Source of the DNA: an uncultured Chthoniobacter sp.
GTDB taxonomy: Bacteria; Verrucomicrobiota; Verrucomicrobiia; Chthoniobacterales; Chthoniobacteraceae
Direction of reading: 5' to 3'
Length of the DNA stretch: 64,000 nucleotides
NCBI GenBank assembly: GCA_903874975.1
Contig: CAIQUL010000147.1
Location: 1-64,000 of the forward strand
Made by a program: the position numbers and the translations under genes. The notes under the pieces are model-generated. The model searched no databases, was not told the DNA's origin, and was given only the letters and a program-made list of their open reading frames with translations. Shown here piece by piece: positions 6,008 to 56,797 of the stretch (position 1 is its first letter; each line of letters starts with the position of its first letter).

Positions 6008-6973
6008 ATGCCCACCGACACCGCCCACATCCAAGACGTCCTCACCCGTGCCCGCGCCGAAGTGCGCAAAGTCATCATCGGTCAGGAGGACGTGATCAAT
6101 AAGGCGCTCATCGCCGTCTTCACCGGCCACCACGCGCTCATCGAGGGCGTGCCCGGTGTCGCCAAAACGCTGCTCGTGCGCACGCTCGCGCGGGTGCTCG
6201 GGTGCGAGTTCAACCGCATCCAATTCACCCCCGATCTCATGCCCGCCGACATCACCGGCACGAGCGTTTTCAACATGCAGAAGAACGAGTTCGTCCTCAT
6301 CAAAGGGCCGGTCTTCACCACCTTTCTGCTCGCCGATGAAATCAACCGCGCCCCCGCGAAAACGCAGTCCGCGCTGCTCCAGGCCATGCAGGAGCGGCGG
6401 GTGACGATCGACCGCGACACGCATGCGCTTTCGCCGCACTTCACCGTCTTCGCGACGCAAAACCCGGTCGAGTACGAGGGCACCTATCCGCTGCCCGAGG
6501 CGCAGAAAGACCGCTTCATGCTCAAGATCTCGATGAACACGCCCGACCGCGCCAGCGAGCTGGAACTCGCGCACCGCATGCTCGGCTCGCACTCGCCCGA
6601 GGAGGCGCTCGCCGCCGGCGAAGTCCAGGCCGTAGTTTCCGCCGAGGACCTCGCCCAGCTCCGCCGCGCGCTCGAAGGCGTGACCGTCCGCGACGAGCTC
6701 ACGGCCTACGTCGTGGACCTCGTGCGCGCGACTCGCGAGACGGACACCGTCCTCGTCGGCGCTGGTCCGCGCGCCACGCAGGCGCTGCTCCTCGCCAGCC
6801 GCGCCAACGCCGCGCTCGCGGGGCGGGATTTCGTCACGCCGGACGACGTGAAAGCCATGACCGAAGCCGTGCTCGGGCACCGCCTCGTGCTGCGGCCGGA
6901 GTATGAGATTGAAGGCGTCACCATCGCAGAAGTGATCGCGAAAATTTTGGAGCACGTGACCGTGCCGCGATGA
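6008..6973 (+). CDS. MoxR family AAA ATPase
   Basis: VIIGQEDVINKALIAVFTGHHALIEGVPGVAKTLLVRTLA; DEINRAPAKTQSALLQAMQE; ATQNPVEYEGTYPLPEAQKDRF. Confidence 0.95.
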   Translation: MPTDTAHIQDVLTRARAEVRKVIIGQEDVINKALIAVFTGHHALIEGVPGVAKTLLVRTLARVLGCEFNRIQFTPDLMPADITGTSVFNMQKNEFVLIKGPVFTTFLLADEINRAPAKTQSALLQAMQERRVTIDRDTHALSPHFTVFATQNPVEYEGTYPLPEAQKDRFMLKISMNTPDRASELELAHRMLGSHSPEEALAAGEVQAVVSAEDLAQLRRALEGVTVRDELTAYVVDLVRATRETDTVLVGAGPRATQALLLASRANAALAGRDFVTPDDVKAMTEAVLGHRLVLRPEYEIEGVTIAEVIAKILEHVTVPR

Positions 6974-6975
6974 GA

Positions 6976-7451
6976 GGGAAAATTCGAAATCCGAAACAAA
7001 TCCGAAATGTCTGAAAGCAGGGAAAACAGACCCTATGACCTTGAAGAGCGGACCTTCGCTTTTGCTCGGGATGTGCGCGCTTTCATAAAGTTGCTGGAGC
7101 GGACAATTGGAAATGTCGAGGACGCCCGACAGGTTGTTCGTTCTTCTGGTTCGGTGGCAGCCAACTACATCGAGGCCAATGAATCGCTGAGCAAAAAGGA
7201 CTTTCGGATGCGGATCAAAATCGGACGGAAGGAAGCCAAGGAAAGTCGCCTTTGGCTAAGGCTTATCGACACCGAAAATCGGCCGGAAGCGCGAGCCCAT
7301 CAGGAACGACTCTGCATGGAGGCTCAAGAGCTGATGAACATCCTCGGCGCAATTTTCCGAAAATGTGAGGGCGGCGAATGATTCCTTTTCCCGTCTTTCA
7401 CTTCCTTCGGATTTGTTTCGGATTTCGATATTCGGATTTCGAACTTTTCCC
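6976..7451. mobile_element. Putative IVS-like cassette: four-helix-bundle ORF between heptad-periodic inverted repeats
   Basis: Left arm 6976-7026 gggaaaattcgaaatccgaaacaaatccgaaatgtctgaaagcagggaaaa pairs with right arm 7387-7451 (reverse complement gggaaaagttcgaaatccgaatatcgaaatccgaaacaaatccgaaggaagtgaaagacgggaaa). Fills the whole moxR stop to DUF58 ATG gap. Confidence 0.65.
7007..7381 (+). CDS. Four-helix-bundle protein (23S rRNA IVS / S23-like family)
   Basis: YDLEERTFAFARDVRAFIKLL..VRSSGSVAANYIEANESLSKKDFRMRIKIGRKEAKESRLWLRL family signature. Confidence 0.9.
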   Translation: MSESRENRPYDLEERTFAFARDVRAFIKLLERTIGNVEDARQVVRSSGSVAANYIEANESLSKKDFRMRIKIGRKEAKESRLWLRLIDTENRPEARAHQERLCMEAQELMNILGAIFRKCEGGE

Positions 7452-8837
7452 ATGCTAGTTCCCCGCACGCGCCTCATCCTCTGGATCACGCTGATCGTGC
7501 TGCCTTTCGCCGCGATCGCGGCGACGCTCCCCACGCTCTCTTGGCTGGCGGCGATCTTCATCGGCGGGCTGGGTTTCCTGGTGATCTTCGACGCGGTCAC
7601 CGCGCGCGGCGGCCTCGGTGGGGTGCGCGTGATTTTACCCGAGGTGGTGCGTTTGCAAAAGGACCGGCCCGGCACCGTGGAGGTCCGCATCCAGAACGAC
7701 GCGCAAGACGCGCGCCGGCTGCGGATCGGTTTCGCGTTCCCGCGCGAGATCAAACCCGCAAGCGAAGACCGCGAGGCGCTGCTCCCGGCGGGCGCGCAAG
7801 TTTCCCGGCTCGACTGGGCGGTCACGCCGGCGCGGCGTGGTCAGTATTTTCTCGATCGCGTGTATCTCGAAGCGGTCTCGCCGCTCGGCTTCTGGGCGGC
7901 GCGGACCAGCCACGCGCTGCGCTCCGAGCTGCGCGTGTATCCCAATCTTTTCGACGAGCGGAAAAACGTCGCCGCGATCTTCCTCAAGCGCGGCCAACTC
8001 GGCGCGCACGCCCAGCGCGCTGCCGGGCAGGGACGCGATTTTGAAAAGCTGCGGATGTACGTCCCTGGCGACAGCCTCAACGAAATTCATTGGAAAGCCT
8101 CGGCCAAGCGCGGCCACCCGGTGACGAAAGTTTTCCAGGTCGAGCGCACTCAGGAGGTTTACGTGATCGTGGATGCCTCGCGCTTGTCGGCCCGACAGAT
8201 TTCCGGTTCCAAATCGGCCGCGCCTTCACCGCAACCAGCAACCCGCGACCAGAAACAAGAAACCCCTGAGACGACCGTCCTCGAACGCTACGTCACCGCC
8301 GCGCTCATCCTCGGCCTCGCCGCCGAGCAGCAGGGCGATCAGTTCGGGCTCGTGACCTTCAGCGATCGCGTGCTCAGCTTTGTCCGCGCGAAGAGCGGCC
8401 AGGCCCACTACGACGCCTGCCGCGACCGCCTCTACGCGCTCCAGCCGCAGAGCGTCACGCCCGACTTCGAGGAGCTGTGCTCGTTCATTCGCCTGCGGTT
8501 GCGCAAACGCGCGCTGCTCATTTTCCTCACCGCGCTCGACGACCCAATGCTCGCCGAGAGCTTTGCCAAAGCCAGCGAGCTGATCAGCCGCCAGCACCTG
8601 ATGATCGTGGACATGCTTCAACCGCCCGGCGCGCAACCGCTCTTCAGCGATGCCGCCGTCACCAGCATCGACGACCTTTACCGCCACCTCGGCGGCCACC
8701 TGCAATGGAACAGCCTGCGCGAACTCGAAAAGGTGCTCAAACGCCGCGGCGTCCGCTTCGCCCTGCTCGATTCCGGCAAGCTCGTCGCGCAGGTCATCGG
8801 GCAGCATGCGGAGGTGAAACGGCGGCAGCTTTTGTAA
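7452..8837 (+). CDS. DUF58 domain-containing protein
   Basis: GRDFEKLRMYVPGDSLNEIHWKASAKRGHPVTKVFQVERTQEVYVIVDASR; adjacent to moxR. Confidence 0.92.
   Translation: MLVPRTRLILWITLIVLPFAAIAATLPTLSWLAAIFIGGLGFLVIFDAVTARGGLGGVRVILPEVVRLQKDRPGTVEVRIQNDAQDARRLRIGFAFPREIKPASEDREALLPAGAQVSRLDWAVTPARRGQYFLDRVYLEAVSPLGFWAARTSHALRSELRVYPNLFDERKNVAAIFLKRGQLGAHAQRAAGQGRDFEKLRMYVPGDSLNEIHWKASAKRGHPVTKVFQVERTQEVYVIVDASRLSARQISGSKSAAPSPQPATRDQKQETPETTVLERYVTAALILGLAAEQQGDQFGLVTFSDRVLSFVRAKSGQAHYDACRDRLYALQPQSVTPDFEELCSFIRLRLRKRALLIFLTALDDPMLAESFAKASELISRQHLMIVDMLQPPGAQPLFSDAAVTSIDDLYRHLGGHLQWNSLRELEKVLKRRGVRFALLDSGKLVAQVIGQHAEVKRRQLL
8232..8267. repeat. In-frame heptad-periodic stretch in DUF58 gene
   Basis: aaccagc aacccgc gaccaga aacaaga aacccct. 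Confidence 0.5.
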
Positions 8838-8868
8838 TGACGAATGTCGGATGACGAATGACGAAAGC
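8835..8868. repeat. Orphan heptad-periodic arm overlapping DUF58 stop
   Basis: taa-tgacgaa-tgtcgga-tgacgaa-tgacgaa; no complementary arm seen nearby. Confidence 0.55.
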
Positions 8869-11446: not shown

Positions 11447-12946
11447 ATGTCCGACTCCGTCCCAATCCAACCGTCGCCCGCCGAGTTCCGCGAGTTGGCG
11501 AAACGCGGGAACACGATCCCGATTTATACCGAACTCATCGCCGACGCCGAGTCGCCGGTTTCCGCGTTTCAAAAGATCGACGAGGGCGGTTACTCGTTTC
11601 TTTTTGAGTCGGTGGAAAAGAGCGATCAGGCGGGGCGCTACTCGTTTGTCGGCGCGCAACCGCGGCTGACGTTCGAGAGCCGCGGGCGGACGATTCGCAT
11701 CGTGGAGGATGGTGTGGTCCGCGAGTTCGAGACGGCGCGCGATCCGCTGCACGAACTCGAAGCGCTGATGAACCGCTTCACTTTCGTGCCGTCACCGGCC
11801 CTGGAGGATTCACGGTTCGCGGGTGGCGCGGTCGGGTATCTCGGCTACGACATGGTGCGGTTCTTCGAGCCCACCATTGCCGCGCCGCCGCCGGATCAAC
11901 TCGGCCTGCCGGAGAGCTTCTTCTTCCTCGCGGAAACGGTCCTCATTTTCGACCACCGCACGCGCCGTCTGCGGATCGTGGCGAATGCGTTCGTCGAGAA
12001 CGATCCGGATGCGGCCTACGCCCTGGCCGCGAAAAAGATCGCGGCGCTCGCCGCGAAACTGAATCAACCGACGCATCTCCCGCCGATCTACGTGGACCGC
12101 CAATCGCCGCCGGTCACGCCCACCGCCAACACCACGCGCGACGAATACCTGCAGATGGTGCGCGACGGGATGGAATACATCCGCGCGGGCGACATCTTCC
12201 AGTTCGTCCCGTCGCAGCGGTTCGAGACGGATTACACGGGCGACGCGCTCACGCTCTACCGCGCGCTGCGTTTCGTGAATCCGTCGCCCTACATGTTTTG
12301 CATGAAATTCGCGGGGCAGTTCGCGCTCGTGGGCAGTTCGCCGGAGGTCCACGTCCGCGCGATCAATGGCCGCATCGACATCCGGCCCATCGCCGGCACG
12401 CGTCGCCGCGGGGCTAACGCCGCCGAGGACGACGCCAATGCCGCCGAACTGCTCGCGGATCCGAAGGAGCGCGCCGAGCACCTCATGCTCGTCGATCTCG
12501 CGCGCAATGATGTCGGCCGTGCCGCCGAGTTCGGCAGCGTGCAGGTCAGCGATTTCATGACCGTGGAGAAATACAGCCATGTCATGCACATCGTCTCCAA
12601 CGTCCACGGCACCCTCCGCCCCGACCGCACCGCCTACGACGTGATGCGCGCGACCTTTCCCGCCGGGACCGTCAGCGGCAGCCCGAAAGTCCGCGCCATG
12701 CAAATCATCAACCAACTCGAGAAGAGCAAACGCGGCGTCTATGCCGGAGCCGTCGGCTACTTCGGCTTCGACGGCCACAGCGACTCCTGCATCGCGCTCC
12801 GCACCGTCGTGCTCAAGGACGGCAAAGCGTTTGTCCAGGCAGGCGCCGGCATCGTGGTCGATTCGTCACCCGAGTCCGAATATCAGGAGTGCGTGAACAA
12901 GGCGATGGGGATGATGGCGGCGATCGCGAGGGCGAAGGGAATTTAG
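11447..12946 (+). CDS. trpE: Anthranilate synthase component I
   Basis: IRAGDIFQFVPSQRFE, SPEVHVR, PIAGTRRRG, HLMLVDLARNDVGRAAEFGSV, FPAGTVSGSPKVRAM. Confidence 0.95.
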   Translation: MSDSVPIQPSPAEFRELAKRGNTIPIYTELIADAESPVSAFQKIDEGGYSFLFESVEKSDQAGRYSFVGAQPRLTFESRGRTIRIVEDGVVREFETARDPLHELEALMNRFTFVPSPALEDSRFAGGAVGYLGYDMVRFFEPTIAAPPPDQLGLPESFFFLAETVLIFDHRTRRLRIVANAFVENDPDAAYALAAKKIAALAAKLNQPTHLPPIYVDRQSPPVTPTANTTRDEYLQMVRDGMEYIRAGDIFQFVPSQRFETDYTGDALTLYRALRFVNPSPYMFCMKFAGQFALVGSSPEVHVRAINGRIDIRPIAGTRRRGANAAEDDANAAELLADPKERAEHLMLVDLARNDVGRAAEFGSVQVSDFMTVEKYSHVMHIVSNVHGTLRPDRTAYDVMRATFPAGTVSGSPKVRAMQIINQLEKSKRGVYAGAVGYFGFDGHSDSCIALRTVVLKDGKAFVQAGAGIVVDSSPESEYQECVNKAMGMMAAIARAKGI

Positions 12947-13380
12947 CATTTAGGAATTAGCATTTAGCATTTGGCCCTGTGCGGTGCGTTTTATGAACAA
13001 GGAAGACCTCAAGCAGCGGACGAAAGATTTTGGACTTCGAGTGATGAAACTGGTGAGGGAGCTGCCGAATGATGTTCCTGGCAAAGTCATCGCCAACCAA
13101 CTCATGCGCTCGGCCAGTTCCGTGGGCGCGAACTATCGCTCAGCCTGTCGCGCACGATCGACCGCCGAGTTCATCGCCAAGCTCGGTGTCGTGCTGGAAG
13201 AAGCGGATGAAAGCGGCCACTGGCTGGAACTCATCATCGCCGATGGTATGCTGCCCGGCTCCCGAGTTGAACCGCTGCGTGCTGAATCCGACGAACTCTG
13301 CGCCATCATCTACGCCGCGATTCACGCCACGCGTCGGAAGCAGTAAAATGCTAAATGCTAAATCCTAACTGCTAAATCCC
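12937..13380. mobile_element. Putative IVS-like cassette: four-helix-bundle ORF between heptad-periodic inverted repeats
   Basis: Left arm 12937-12972 gggaatttagcatttaggaattagcatttagcattt versus reverse complement of right arm 13346-13380 gggatttagcagttaggatttagcatttagcattt: two mismatches and one indel. Confidence 0.7.
12993..13346 (+). CDS. Four-helix-bundle protein (S23-like family)
   Basis: LKQRTKDFGLRVMKLVRELP..QLMRSASSVGANYRSACRARSTAEFIAKLGVVLEEADESGHWLEL family signature; upstream GTG 12984 possible. Confidence 0.88.
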   Translation: MNKEDLKQRTKDFGLRVMKLVRELPNDVPGKVIANQLMRSASSVGANYRSACRARSTAEFIAKLGVVLEEADESGHWLELIIADGMLPGSRVEPLRAESDELCAIIYAAIHATRRKQ

Positions 13381-15804: not shown

Positions 15805-15902
15805 GTTGGCCCGCGCGTCGCGGTCGAAGCGCCCCTGCAGGCGCACTCTTCCCCCTCCCCGCGCGGTGACCGCCACGTCGGCGAAGTCACGGGCGAGCGA
15901 AT

Positions 15903-15959
15903 GTAGCTTGGGCTTTAGTCCAATGGGCGGCAGGGCCTTTGGACTAAAGTCCAAGCTAC
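15903..15959. repeat. GTAGCTTGG(G/A)CTTTAGTCCAA palindrome
   Basis: gtagcttgggctttagtccaa ... ttggactaaagtccaagctac, 20/21 complementary. Confidence 0.85.
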
Positions 15960-16003
15960 TTTCCGCACTCGCAACGACCGCTGCGGCAAGCCGGCGGCTG
16001 GCG

Positions 16004-34241: not shown

Positions 34242-34820
34242 GTGGCCGTTTCATCCACCATGCTGGCGCTCGGCACAGTGGCGCCGGATTTCGCCCTGCC
34301 CGATGTGGCTTGCGGCCGCACGGTCTCGCTGGCGGATTTCGCGGAAAAAAACGCGCTGCTCGTGATGTTTCTGTGTGCCCATTGTCCGTATGTCGTCCAC
34401 GTGCAGGCGGAACTCGCGCGGCTCGCGCGGGACTACGCGGGCCGGAGTCTCGCGCTGGTCGCCATCACCGCCAATGACGTGGCCAACTATCCGCAGGACG
34501 CACCCGCGCCGACCGCGGCGATGGCCCGCGCCGCCGGCTTCACGTTCCCGTTTTTGTATGATGAAACGCAGGTGGTCGCCAAAGAGTACAGCGCCGCCTG
34601 CACGCCGGATTTTTTCGTCTTCGATGCCGCGCGCCGCCTCGTCTATCGCGGCCAACTCGACGCCTCCCGCCCCGGACGCGGCCAGGCCGACGGGGCCGAC
34701 CTCCGCGCCGCCCTCGACGCCGTGCTCGCCGGCACAGCGGTGCATCCCGAGCAAAAGCCGAGCATCGGCTGCAACATCAAGTGGCAGCCCGGCCGCGAGC
34801 CCGCGTATTTCGGAAAGTAG
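34242..34820 (+). CDS. Thioredoxin-family (AhpC/TSA-like) protein
   Basis: LGTVAPDFALPDVACGRTVSLADFAEKNALLVMFLCAHCPYVVHVQ. Confidence 0.88.
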   Translation: MAVSSTMLALGTVAPDFALPDVACGRTVSLADFAEKNALLVMFLCAHCPYVVHVQAELARLARDYAGRSLALVAITANDVANYPQDAPAPTAAMARAAGFTFPFLYDETQVVAKEYSAACTPDFFVFDAARRLVYRGQLDASRPGRGQADGADLRAALDAVLAGTAVHPEQKPSIGCNIKWQPGREPAYFGK

Positions 34821-34874
34821 CTGGGACTTTAGTCCAAAGGGTGGCTGGGCTTTTGGACTAAAGCCCCAGCTACT
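34816..34874. repeat. GTAGCTGGGACTTTAGTCCAAA palindrome
   Basis: agtagctgggactttagtccaaagg ... ttttggactaaagccccagctact. Confidence 0.85.
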
Positions 34875-34895
34875 TTTTCTCGCATCGCCGCGCAC

Positions 34896-35054
34896 TCCGG
34901 GTGGAGCACTCGACCCGAGTGCCCTTGGAGGCGACCCGCCGCCAAGTCGGGGAGCGCGCGGCTGTTCGTTCCCGCGGGAATCCCGGAGCGCCGCGCACTC
35001 CGGCGTCCTCGGCGGGTCGCCGAAGACCGCACTCGGGTCGAGTGCTCCACCCGG
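34896..35054. repeat. 159-bp palindromic element, intergenic copy
   Basis: tccgggtggagcactcgacccgagtgc (27 nt) perfectly inverted at 35028-35054; inner ggcgacccgcc / ggcgggtcgcc also pairs. Confidence 0.85.
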
Positions 35055-35082
35055 AAATCTGATCCCGAGATGACGCGCTCAC

Positions 35083-35108
35083 AAAGTAGCTGGGACTTTA
35101 GTCCAAAG
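35083..35108. repeat. Half copy of the GTAGCTGGGACTTTAGTCCAAAG palindrome
   Basis: aaagtagctgggactttagtccaaag without its partner arm. Confidence 0.7.
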
Positions 35109-53441: not shown

Positions 53442-56400
53442 TCCCGTGGCTCATCGCATGGTCGCTGCGCAACCGCTTCCTCGTCGCGTGCGGCGTCCTA
53501 GTCGTCATCGCCGTCGGCCTTTTCGAGCTGCGCCGCGCGCCCGTGGATGCCATTCCGGACCTCAGCGAAAACCAAGTCATCGTCTTCGCCGACTGGCCGG
53601 GCCGCAGCCCGCAGGAGGTCGAGGACCAGATTACCTATCCGCTCTCCGTGAATCTTCAGGGCCTTGCCGGGGTGAAGACGGTGCGCGCTAACTCTATGTT
53701 CGGCTTTTCGCTGCTGACGGTGATTTTCGACGAGAAGATCGACAACTACTTCGCCCGCACGCGGGTGCTCGAACGGCTGAACTATCTCGGCGATTTGCTC
53801 CCGCAAAATGTCACACCCAAGCTCGGGCCGGACGCGACCGGGCTCGGGTGGATCTTTCAATACTACCTCGACGTGGACCCGGCGAAGTCGCCCGCGGGTG
53901 GCTACGACCTCGGTCGCTTGCGGTCCGAACAGGATTGGTTCGTGCGCTACCAACTCAACGCCGTGGCCGGCGTGGCCGAAGTCGCGAGCATCGGTGGCTT
54001 CGTGCGGCAGTATCAGATCGAGGTTTCCTCGATGAAAATGCGCGCGGCGGGCGTGTCGTTGCAGGAAGTCATGGAGGCCGTCGGGCAGAGCAATCTTAAC
54101 GTCGGCGGCAAGGTCATCGAGGAAAACGGCATGGAGTTCGTGGTGCGCGGACTGGGGCTCATCGGCTCGGTCGGCGATCTCGAACAGACCGTGCTCGCCC
54201 AGCGCGAAGGCACGCCGATCTACCTCCGCGATGTCGCGACCGTGCAGATCGGCGGCGACTTCCGCCGCGGTGCGCTCGATGTGAACGGGCGTGAAGTGGT
54301 GGGCGGGATTGTGGTCATGCGGAATGGCGAGAACGCGCACGCGGTCATCCAGCGCGTGAAGGAAAAGATCGCCGCGATCACGCCCAGCCTGCCGCCCGGC
54401 GTGACGATCAAATCCTTCTACGACCGCAGCGAACTGATCGACCGGACCATCGACACCCTCAAGCACGCGCTCACCGAGGAGATCATCCTCGTCACGCTCG
54501 CGCACATCATCTTCCTGTTTCATTTCCGCAGCATCCTCATCGTCACCTTCCCGCTGCCGGTCTCGATTCTGATTTCGTTCATCCTCATGCGGCAGTTCGG
54601 CATCACGTCGAACATCATGTCGCTCGCCGGCATCGCCATTGCCATCGGCGTGCTCGTGGATGCGGCCATCGTCATGACGGAAAATGTCATCCGCCACTGC
54701 GAGGAGGCGGAGCGGGAGAAAGCGGCGCGAATGGCTCCGGGTGGAGCACTCGACCCGAGTGCCGCTTCCGGCGACTCGCCGGAAGCACCGGTGAGCGCGC
54801 CTTTGGGAACAGCCTCCTCTCATGGCGCCGCGCACCCGGTGTTGTCGGCGGGTCGCCGCCAACAGCACTCGGGTCGAGTGCTCCACCCGGACATCCGCCT
54901 CACCGCGGCAGAGACGCTCGCCGTCACCCTCACTGCTTCGCGGCAGGTCGGCCGCCCGATCTTTTTCGCCATGGCGATCATCATCCTCGCCTTCGTCCCG
55001 GTCTTCGCGCTCACCGGCCAGGAGGGGAAACTTTTCCACCCGCTGGCCTTCACCAAGACCTTCGCGATGATCGGCTCTACGCTCCTCGCCGTCACCGTGG
55101 TGCCGGTGCTGTGCGCCTTGCTCGTGCGCGGGCCGTTTCACTCCGAGCAGGACAACTGGGTCATGCGCGGCCTGCTGCGCCTCTACGATCCCGCGCTCGA
55201 CTGGGCGCTGCGGCATCGCAAATCCGTAATCGCCCTCGCCGCCGCCATGCTCCTCGGCGCGCTCGCGCTCATCCCGCGGATGGGCACCGAATTCATGCCG
55301 CCACTCAATGAAGGCTCGCTGCTTTTCATGCCGGTTCTGCTCCCGCAGACTTCGCTCACGGAGGTGAAAAGGATCATGTCCTGGCAGGATCAGGTCATCG
55401 CCGCGACGCCCGAGGTCACCTCCGTCGCGGGGAAACTCGGCCGCGCGGAATCCGCCACCGACCCTGCGCCCGTCGAGATGATCGAGACCACGATCATGCT
55501 CAAACCCGAGTCCGAGTGGCGCAAAGGGATGACCAAAGACATGCTCGTCGCCGAGTTGACCTCGAAGCTCACGCAAGTGCCCGGCTACGTCCCTGGCTTT
55601 CTCCAGCCGATCGAAAATCGCATCCTCATGCTCAGCACCGGCATCCGCGCGCAGGTCGGCATCAAGATCCTCGGCGAAAATCTCGACGCCCTGCAGGCCA
55701 AGGCTTTCGAAGTCGAGCGCATCGTCCGCAGCATCCCCGGCGCGGTCGGCGTCGCGCCCTCGCGCGTGCAGGGCAAGCCGTATCTCGAAATCGCCGTGAA
55801 CCGCGAAGCCATGGCCCGCTACGGCCTGCGCGCCGCGCAACTCCTCGATGTCGTCGAAGCCGGCCTCGGCGGGCGCAACGTCGGGACCACCATCGAGGGC
55901 CGCCAGCGTTTCCCCATCCAAGTCCGCCTCGAGCGCGACGAGCGCGACGACATCGAGCGCCTCGGCGACATCCTTGTCGCTACGCCCGCCGGCCAACACA
56001 TCCCGCTCGGCCAGCTCACCGACATCCGCCGCAGCCTCGGAGCGAGCGAGATCGCCAGCGAGAACGGACGTCTCCGCGTCTTCGTGCAGGCGAATGTGCA
56101 AGGCCGCGACCTCGGCGGGTTCGTCGAGGAAGTGCGCCGCCGCATCGACAAAGAAGTCGCGCTCCCCGGCGGCATGACCATCGAGTGGAGCGGCCAGTAT
56201 GAGCACCAACTCAGCGCGCGGCGGACCTTGCAGATCATCGTCCCCGCCGTTCTTGGGATCATTTTCATCCTGCTCTACATGGTCTATGGCAGCGCCAAGG
56301 AAGCCGCCCACGTCATCCTCGCCGTCCCCTTCGCGCTGACCGGCGGCGTGTTTTTGCAATACCTCCTCGGCTACCCGTTCAGCGTCGCCGTGTGGGTCGG

Positions 56401-56797
56401 CTACATCGCGCTCTTCGGCACCGCGATTCAGACCGGCGTGGTCATGGTGGTGTATCTGGAGGAGGCGGTGGAGAGGATGAAGAAAAGGCTAAAGGATGAA
56501 GGCGGAGGGATGAAGGGGGACGCGGCCGCAGTTCATCCCTCAGCCTTCAGCCTGCAGCCTTCCGACCTCCTCGCCGCGGTCAAGGAAGGTGCGCGTCTCC
56601 GCCTGCGCCCGAAAGTGATGACCGTGGCGACCATCGTCGCCAGCCTGCTGCCGATCATGTGGAGCACGCGCGCCGGCGCGGAGATCATGAAGCCGCTCGC
56701 GGCGCCGGTCATCGGCGGCATGCTGAGCAGCCTTTTGCACATCCTCATCGTCACCCCCGTCATCTTCGCCTGGCTCCGCGAGCGTGAGCTGCGATGA
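53438..56797 (+). CDS. cusA: CusA/CzcA-family heavy metal efflux RND transporter
   Basis: Start GTG; IPWLIAWSLRNRFLV; DAIPDLSENQVIVFADWPGRSPQEVEDQITYPLSVNLQGLAGVKTVRANSMFGFS; LVDAAIVMTENVIRHCEEAE; contains two repeat-derived in-frame insertions. Confidence 0.95.
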   Translation: MIPWLIAWSLRNRFLVACGVLVVIAVGLFELRRAPVDAIPDLSENQVIVFADWPGRSPQEVEDQITYPLSVNLQGLAGVKTVRANSMFGFSLLTVIFDEKIDNYFARTRVLERLNYLGDLLPQNVTPKLGPDATGLGWIFQYYLDVDPAKSPAGGYDLGRLRSEQDWFVRYQLNAVAGVAEVASIGGFVRQYQIEVSSMKMRAAGVSLQEVMEAVGQSNLNVGGKVIEENGMEFVVRGLGLIGSVGDLEQTVLAQREGTPIYLRDVATVQIGGDFRRGALDVNGREVVGGIVVMRNGENAHAVIQRVKEKIAAITPSLPPGVTIKSFYDRSELIDRTIDTLKHALTEEIILVTLAHIIFLFHFRSILIVTFPLPVSILISFILMRQFGITSNIMSLAGIAIAIGVLVDAAIVMTENVIRHCEEAEREKAARMAPGGALDPSAASGDSPEAPVSAPLGTASSHGAAHPVLSAGRRQQHSGRVLHPDIRLTAAETLAVTLTASRQVGRPIFFAMAIIILAFVPVFALTGQEGKLFHPLAFTKTFAMIGSTLLAVTVVPVLCALLVRGPFHSEQDNWVMRGLLRLYDPALDWALRHRKSVIALAAAMLLGALALIPRMGTEFMPPLNEGSLLFMPVLLPQTSLTEVKRIMSWQDQVIAATPEVTSVAGKLGRAESATDPAPVEMIETTIMLKPESEWRKGMTKDMLVAELTSKLTQVPGYVPGFLQPIENRILMLSTGIRAQVGIKILGENLDALQAKAFEVERIVRSIPGAVGVAPSRVQGKPYLEIAVNREAMARYGLRAAQLLDVVEAGLGGRNVGTTIEGRQRFPIQVRLERDERDDIERLGDILVATPAGQHIPLGQLTDIRRSLGASEIASENGRLRVFVQANVQGRDLGGFVEEVRRRIDKEVALPGGMTIEWSGQYEHQLSARRTLQIIVPAVLGIIFILLYMVYGSAKEAAHVILAVPFALTGGVFLQYLLGYPFSVAVWVGYIALFGTAIQTGVVMVVYLEEAVERMKKRLKDEGGGMKGDAAAVHPSAFSLQPSDLLAAVKEGARLRLRPKVMTVATIVASLLPIMWSTRAGAEIMKPLAAPVIGGMLSSLLHILIVTPVIFAWLRERELR
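54736..54891. repeat. 156-bp palindromic element inserted in frame in cusA
   Basis: tccgggtggagcactcgacccgagtgc (54736-54762) perfectly inverted at 54865-54891; homologous to 34896-35054. Confidence 0.88.
56485..56561. repeat. 77-bp heptad-periodic inverted-repeat element, in frame in cusA
   Basis: aaggctaaaggatgaaggcggagggatgaa versus reverse complement of right arm aaggctgcaggctgaaggctgagggatgaa: 26/30; 17-nt loop. Confidence 0.75.

Follow-up and report, generated by a model that had tools for sequence, protein, structure and literature searches.

S23 proteins are encoded by the intervening sequences (IVSs) of bacterial 23S rRNA, for example in Coxiella and Leptospira, and in Salmonella the stem of the rRNA IVS is cut by RNase III. 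Cyanobacteria have a recognised class of intergenic heptad repeats, named STRR. The IVS of Coxiella 23S rRNA is 428 nt long, ends in a 28-bp stem, contains an ORF for S23, is excised by RNase III and has two to three tandem GACAGAT heptamers upstream of the ORF, their number varying between strains (PMC4990558); these heptamers link the rRNA IVS with the mRNA cassettes described here. The P6b stem of the Nostoc trnL intron is built of complementary heptads belonging to two interchangeable classes (PMC4476775), while the TAACTGA repeats of marine Beggiatoaceae are direct repeats of a single fixed heptamer, with inverted arrangements almost absent (PMC4679880). Among the open-access papers searched, none connected S23 genes with inverted heptad arms located in protein operons; the search did not extend to subscription journals or to most preprints, and the novelty of the association is provisional.

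The window (the whole 64,000-nt stretch of Chthoniobacter DNA that was analysed) contains a 476-nt cassette at 6976–7451 which fills the space from the moxR stop codon to the DUF58 start codon in the order arm, S23 ORF, inverted arm. The upstream host gene, moxR (6008–6973, + strand; PF07726 AAA_3, 4e-63), ends with the TGA at 6971–6973, and the downstream host, the DUF58 gene (7452–8837, +; PF01882), begins with the ATG at 7452. The left arm (6976–7026, +) is an array of CCGAAAT-type heptads, and the right arm (7386–7451, +) is its reverse complement; the repeat search matched 6984–7026 to 7386–7428 (43 nt, 84% complementary) and 6976–6995 to 7431–7450 (20 nt, 90%), and the arms are listed as tandem heptads of this type among the tandem repeats of the window. 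The S23-type four-helix-bundle ORF (7007–7381, +; 124 aa), whose start codon at 7007 falls within the left arm, scores above the curated cut-offs of both TIGR02436 (58.7 bits against 24) and PF05635 (38.3 bits against 33.8). Folding of the transcript, which had been suggested in an earlier note made from the sequence alone, predicted pairing of the arms (MFE z-score −2.7), with a predicted duplex of −56.3 kcal/mol. The cassette region had no match in Rfam. The repeat search and the family cut-offs thus bear out that note in placing an S23-type four-helix ORF between long inverted arms, and its boundaries, from just past the moxR TGA to the base before the DUF58 ATG, hold as well.

The orthologous cassette of another genome of the genus (G001) has arms that are complementary over 43 of 43 nt, with a 14-nt block in both. 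The earlier note had described this block as an addition to the right arm. The block is real, but since both G001 arms carry it, two heptads have been lost from the left arm here, which is 14 nt shorter than that of the ortholog, and none were added on the right. Upstream of DUF58 in G001 (L128), the last S23 codons and the right arm are tandemly doubled, through either a duplication or an assembly effect. Comparison of the two S23 genes gave dN/dS values of 0.05/1.56, a ratio of approximately 0.03, which is only a rough figure because dS is nearly saturated. On this comparison, S23 is under purifying selection. The AlphaFold model of the protein (7007–7381) has a pLDDT of 90.6, and its best PDB match is 2rld, with 2gsc also matched. 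Weaker matches were obtained with the Avd protein of diversity-generating retroelements (DGRs) (4dwl) and a DGR ribonucleoprotein (8ub7), both with a Foldseek probability of 1.00 and TM scores of 0.54–0.59 for the monomer, and the fold of S23 is accordingly predicted to be Avd-like.

Six PF05635 (S23) ORFs are present in the genome of the window, at least five of them within inverted heptad arms, and the heptads of the five armed loci all differ (CCGAAAT, TTTAGCA, AATGACC, GGATGAA and TGATTGG). A second cassette of the window occupies the gap between trpE and trpG. Its left arm of TTTAGCA heptads (12938–12972, +) includes the trpE stop codon (TAG, 12944–12946), the S23-type ORF follows at 12984–13346 (+; TIGR02436 78.9 bits, PF05635 55.6 bits), and the last base of the right arm (13346–13380, +) directly precedes the trpG ATG. 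Heptads are also found without an S23 gene: a GGATGAA-type hairpin with a 17-nt loop (56485–56561, +) is read through in frame within a large efflux-type gene, which was named CusA/RND-like from its translation without a family search, and a lone AATGACG array just past the DUF58 stop codon (8836–8865, +), for which no partner arm was found, is a possible remnant. Such ORF-less heptad hairpins, counted in two genomes only, number approximately 13 in approximately 445 kb, and those of G004, a genome of the same genus, group into shared heptad types, two having related loops. The window carries further repeats: a long, heptad-free palindromic repeat (TCCGGGTGGAGCACTCGACCCGAGTGC...) is present in two copies with different loops (54736–54891 and 34896–35055), and several copies of the palindrome AAAGTAGCTGGGACTTTAGTCCAAA / TTTGGACTAAAGCCCCAGCTACTTT (15899–15963, 34814–34876 and 35083–35107) form a separate family of dispersed hairpins.

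To see how general this arrangement is, we analysed 202 S23 loci, drawn from the order of the window, its phylum and a database-wide sample, against 367 controls, windows of identical geometry displaced by 750 nt inside the same loci. The S23 genome scan used alignment A2, as alignment A1 was too divergent. Inverted-repeat scores of at least 14 were reached by 166 of the 202 loci and by four control windows, and the combination of inverted arms with a period of 7 by 133 loci and no control window. The arms are therefore not a product of chance. Control sequence had a lag-7 identity of 0.245 and the arms one of 0.61; 61 of 72 loci had 7 or 14 as their best arm period, consistent with intergenic tandem arrays of degenerate 7-nt units. 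Among the loci of the same order, the arms paired above the 99th percentile of swapped-arm cross-pairs in 72 of 94. The median predicted duplex was −44.9 kcal/mol for own arms versus −10.9 kcal/mol for swapped ones. Swapped arms thus fail to pair, and no terminal inverted repeat is common to all loci; a terminal GGGAAA...TTTCCC motif is enriched, yet limited to a small minority. Eight loci (L006, L012, L046, L053, L169, L186, L192 and L204) are exceptions without clear arms, and the locus sets are not phylogenetically independent.

The sampled loci span about ten phyla. From the record titles these are Verrucomicrobia, Planctomycetota, Acidobacteria, Deltaproteobacteria/Desulfobacterales, Chloroflexi (Anaerolineae, Roseiflexaceae), Nitrospirota, Armatimonadota, Gammaproteobacteria, Bacteroidetes and Chlorobi/Ignavibacteria. 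They are joined by plasmids of cyanobacteria (Nostoc, Planktothrix and Gloeocapsa), whose cassettes carry heptad arms, and of Chlorohelix. In all, cassettes were seen in operons of more than ten phyla, nearly every site having its own heptad. Two of the plasmids, from Gloeocapsa (L285, Cyanobacteriota) and Chlorohelix (L290, Chloroflexota), share a cassette junction between a DUF1156 gene and a Swt1-HEPN gene. An S23 cassette separates csx2 from cas1 in Pseudanabaena (L291), a position that could account for the appearance of PF05635 in surveys of cas genes.

The cassettes extend approximately from the upstream stop codon to the downstream start codon and lie in the sense direction within operons. 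With site clusters collapsed, there were 45 independent sites where the coding calls for both neighbours were confident; in 39 the cassette lay in sense between co-directional genes (+,+) and in five it was antisense (−,−). For all 67 loci, uncollapsed, the figures were 59 and five. In 47 of 55 cases the upstream stop codon is no more than 15 nt away from the arm; in 21 the arm itself contains it. This intergenic, sense-only pattern may partly reflect the purging of harmful insertions rather than targeting at the RNA level. Host genes show no functional theme, with 119 Pfam families among 109 downstream proteins, and only the moxR–DUF58 junction clearly recurs. Besides the cassette at 6976–7451, it is occupied at eight loci (L001, L019, L041, L027, L029, L091, L197 and L239) with different heptads, across Verrucomicrobiota, Kiritimatiellota and Chloroflexota. 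About five S23 lineages are involved, one in Anaerolineales and one in Kiritimatiellota, their representatives only 21–26% identical to one another. With approximately seven MoxR genes per genome, this recurrence exceeds what random choice of junctions would give, although no formal test was made.

Both junctions occupied in the window are empty in relatives. The moxR–DUF58 junction has no cassette and a gap of 16 nt in a genome of the same genus (G002), and short or overlapping junctions were seen in four more genomes (G014, G010, G038 and G008). Among 22 readable trpE–trpG junctions, only that of the window's genome has an S23 cassette; 18 are empty (40 nt or less), including the 9-nt junction of G001, and three contain ORF-less repeats, one of which is a heptad hairpin with another heptad. 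G004 carries ORF-less hairpins at both places (L129 at moxR–DUF58 and L102 at trpE–trpG), the former a GGATGAA heptad hairpin nested in an outer hairpin of 9-nt repeats (CGCAGAGAC). Similar hairpins or arrays of 9–10-nt repeats were observed at trpE–trpG in L109 and L115. As far as sequence comparison alone can tell, this distribution indicates that cassettes were gained at moxR–DUF58 and at trpE–trpG.

Similar cassettes were also found at unrelated sites. Two S23 proteins with 95% identity, from two genomes (L073 and L081), and two with 84% identity from a single genome (L051 and L055) have similar arms and unrelated flanks. Across 164 loci, with pairs of similar flanks excluded, S23 protein identity predicted arm similarity (Spearman 0.365; 0 of 300 permutations), therefore arms and ORF travel together. 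The heptad type tracks the S23 clade, unrelated sites included, and arm similarity is mainly confined within clades. At orthologous sites, 29 of 37 comparisons gave better pairing for own arms than for hybrids of the two cassettes, the mean scores being 22.9 and 16.0, so both arms change together, with the caveats that the pairs are not all independent and that the loci had been pre-filtered for pairing.

We consider it probable, if some way from certain, that the cassette represents a minimal mobile element of the 23S rRNA IVS type, resident in polycistronic mRNA. This supports the earlier note, which had proposed an IVS architecture, with a stem and a four-helix ORF in its loop, set in a protein operon and possibly mobile: the anatomy matches, the Coxiella heptamers strengthen the link, and mobility finds support in the similar cassettes at unrelated flanks and in the empty moxR–DUF58 sites that the note had said to look for, the gap not being conserved throughout. 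Its further question, whether other four-helix ORFs are flanked by inverted repeats, is answered by the strong enrichment among the S23 loci. The dsRNA processing site that it placed in the mRNA is an inference. We take as established the anatomy and generality of the cassettes, their gain and loss, the co-movement of arms and ORF, the sense bias and the selection on S23; RNase III processing, binding of heptads by S23, translational coupling and rewriting of the arms by template switching are all inferred.

The co-movement of arms and ORF would also be expected of a DNA transposon, with the heptad arms acting as terminal inverted repeats or cruciforms that are recognised in DNA by S23 together with a transposase, supplied by the host or acting in trans. 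In that case the stem in RNA would be incidental, and the sense bias would stem from a need for expression or from selection against promoter disruption. ORF-less heptad hairpins of the same type in the same genomes are MITE-like, and across 146 Verrucomicrobiota genomes the S23 count correlates with that of Y1 transposases (rho 0.59, against 0.29 for reverse transcriptases; phylogeny uncorrected). However, no target-site duplication is visible at the two best comparisons of empty and filled sites, moxR–DUF58 and trpE–trpG, where the empty alleles differ in sequence; 18 genomes with S23 lack Y1, and seven with at least three S23 ORFs have neither a reverse transcriptase nor Y1. A Y1/RAYT transposase as the mover was rejected given those genomes and the 20 Y1 loci without heptad arms, several of which have palindromes of their own. 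DNA transposition remains possible, though unlikely. The sense bias could also point to a retroelement, in which S23 acts like Avd alongside a reverse transcriptase that copies the hairpin RNA into new sites in trans. The predicted fold of S23, with its match to a DGR ribonucleoprotein, is in keeping with this, and PF05635 has been noted to resemble Avd (PMC10053308). Yet the genome of the window (G000, 96% complete) has no RVT_1 match despite its six S23 ORFs, and the same is true of genomes with 18, 13 and 10 of them. A reverse transcriptase in trans was rejected as a requirement, and we give the retroelement reading very little credence. For the cassette itself, neither a recombinase nor a reverse transcriptase was identified.

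If nothing moved at all, S23 could be an ordinary small operon gene, and the heptads a resident, slippage-prone mRNA structure that tunes the differential expression of its neighbours, with gain and loss amounting to gene turnover. The strong purifying selection on S23, the maintenance of arm complementarity at orthologous sites and the conservation of some sites within a family would all suit a regulatory hairpin, and TAACTGA heptamers have been published as translational regulators (PMC4679880). Against this, the host junctions are very diverse, many sites are empty, and similar cassettes recur at unrelated sites where the heptad type still follows the S23 clade; we regard this reading as decidedly unlikely. 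That low-complexity heptads were simply mis-assembled around unrelated small ORFs might be suspected from the many carriers that are metagenome-assembled genomes, but the arms are conserved across species, none of the control windows combined inverted arms with the heptad period, and the cassettes occur in finished plasmids and one complete chromosome (L226). Their presence on complete replicons already refutes an artefact of assembly or composition, which retains essentially no weight.

A mobile element of the IVS type in mRNA could work as follows. In the transcript, the arms would pair over more than 20 bp, giving a stem that RNase III could cut, although there are no RNA data, and cutting would separate the two cistrons without destroying either. 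Translation of S23 would be coupled to that of the upstream gene, whose stop codon abuts the left arm or lies inside it. S23 may bind heptad arrays of its own type, whether as RNA or as DNA, and may aid movement of the unit; the insertion enzyme is unidentified and would probably be borrowed from the host. Complementarity of the arms might be kept by template switching or slippage at the hairpin, rewriting both arms, or by selection for pairing.

The S23 cassette has the look of a minimal mobile element that is very widespread and has largely escaped notice. The S23 gene, annotated as 'four helix bundle protein' in very many genomes, would be the gene of a mobile unit armed by heptad repeats, which explains a common but unexplained annotation and offers a reason for the hairpins found between the cistrons of many operons. 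It also joins two long-standing questions, where bacterial heptanucleotide repeats come from and how rRNA IVSs move, and there is a fair chance that rRNA IVSs, along with much heptad-repeat DNA, have S23 cassettes as their parent class. A bolder conjecture, possible but more doubtful than not, is that they form a large mobile class without a dedicated recombinase or reverse transcriptase, in which an Avd-like four-helix protein reads a heptad code private to its element and every new copy generates self-complementary heptad arms afresh; the heptad repeats of cyanobacteria, the heptad stems of introns, rRNA IVSs and ORF-less heptad hairpins would then be products or relics of these cassettes.

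Set beside described systems, the cassettes resemble MITEs, REPINs and Rickettsia palindromic elements in being short, dispersed hairpins with ORF-less forms and occasional in-frame insertions, but they have no universal terminal sequence and the 20 Y1 loci examined have no heptad arms. With DGR Avd they share a related four-helix fold, but not a reverse transcriptase partner, RVT_1 being absent from the window's genome. Like the Beggiatoaceae TAACTGA repeats, they place intergenic heptamers near start codons and are patchy across phyla; those repeats, however, use one heptamer in direct rather than inverted arrangement, and S23 is not mentioned for them. Parallels also exist with STRR and the Nostoc P6b stem, which are likewise intergenic or in RNA loops and have a period of 7, degenerate units, complementary arrays that form stems and swapping of heptad classes. 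No flanking S23 appears in the descriptions of these that were consulted, whereas here an S23 ORF usually fills heptad hairpins of ORF size.

The 23S rRNA IVS differs in its host, which is rRNA rather than a protein operon such as moxR–DUF58, and the arms of the cassettes are mostly heptad arrays that vary from locus to locus. S23 is under purifying selection here but is decaying in Coxiella, where it is apparently not made, therefore a role of S23 in mobility is not general. No S23 locus within 23S or 16S rRNA emerged from a motif scan. With every locus examined lying outside rRNA, the case for continuity with the rRNA IVS depends on the ORF family, on the architecture and on a single published case of heptamers. 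The shared features are a similar size (428 nt in Coxiella and 476 nt here), complementary terminal arms (by predicted pairing here), a PF05635 ORF in the loop, and a sporadic presence with empty sites in relatives. The cassette fails the definition of an rRNA IVS by location and is therefore termed 'IVS-like', though its anatomy works like one.
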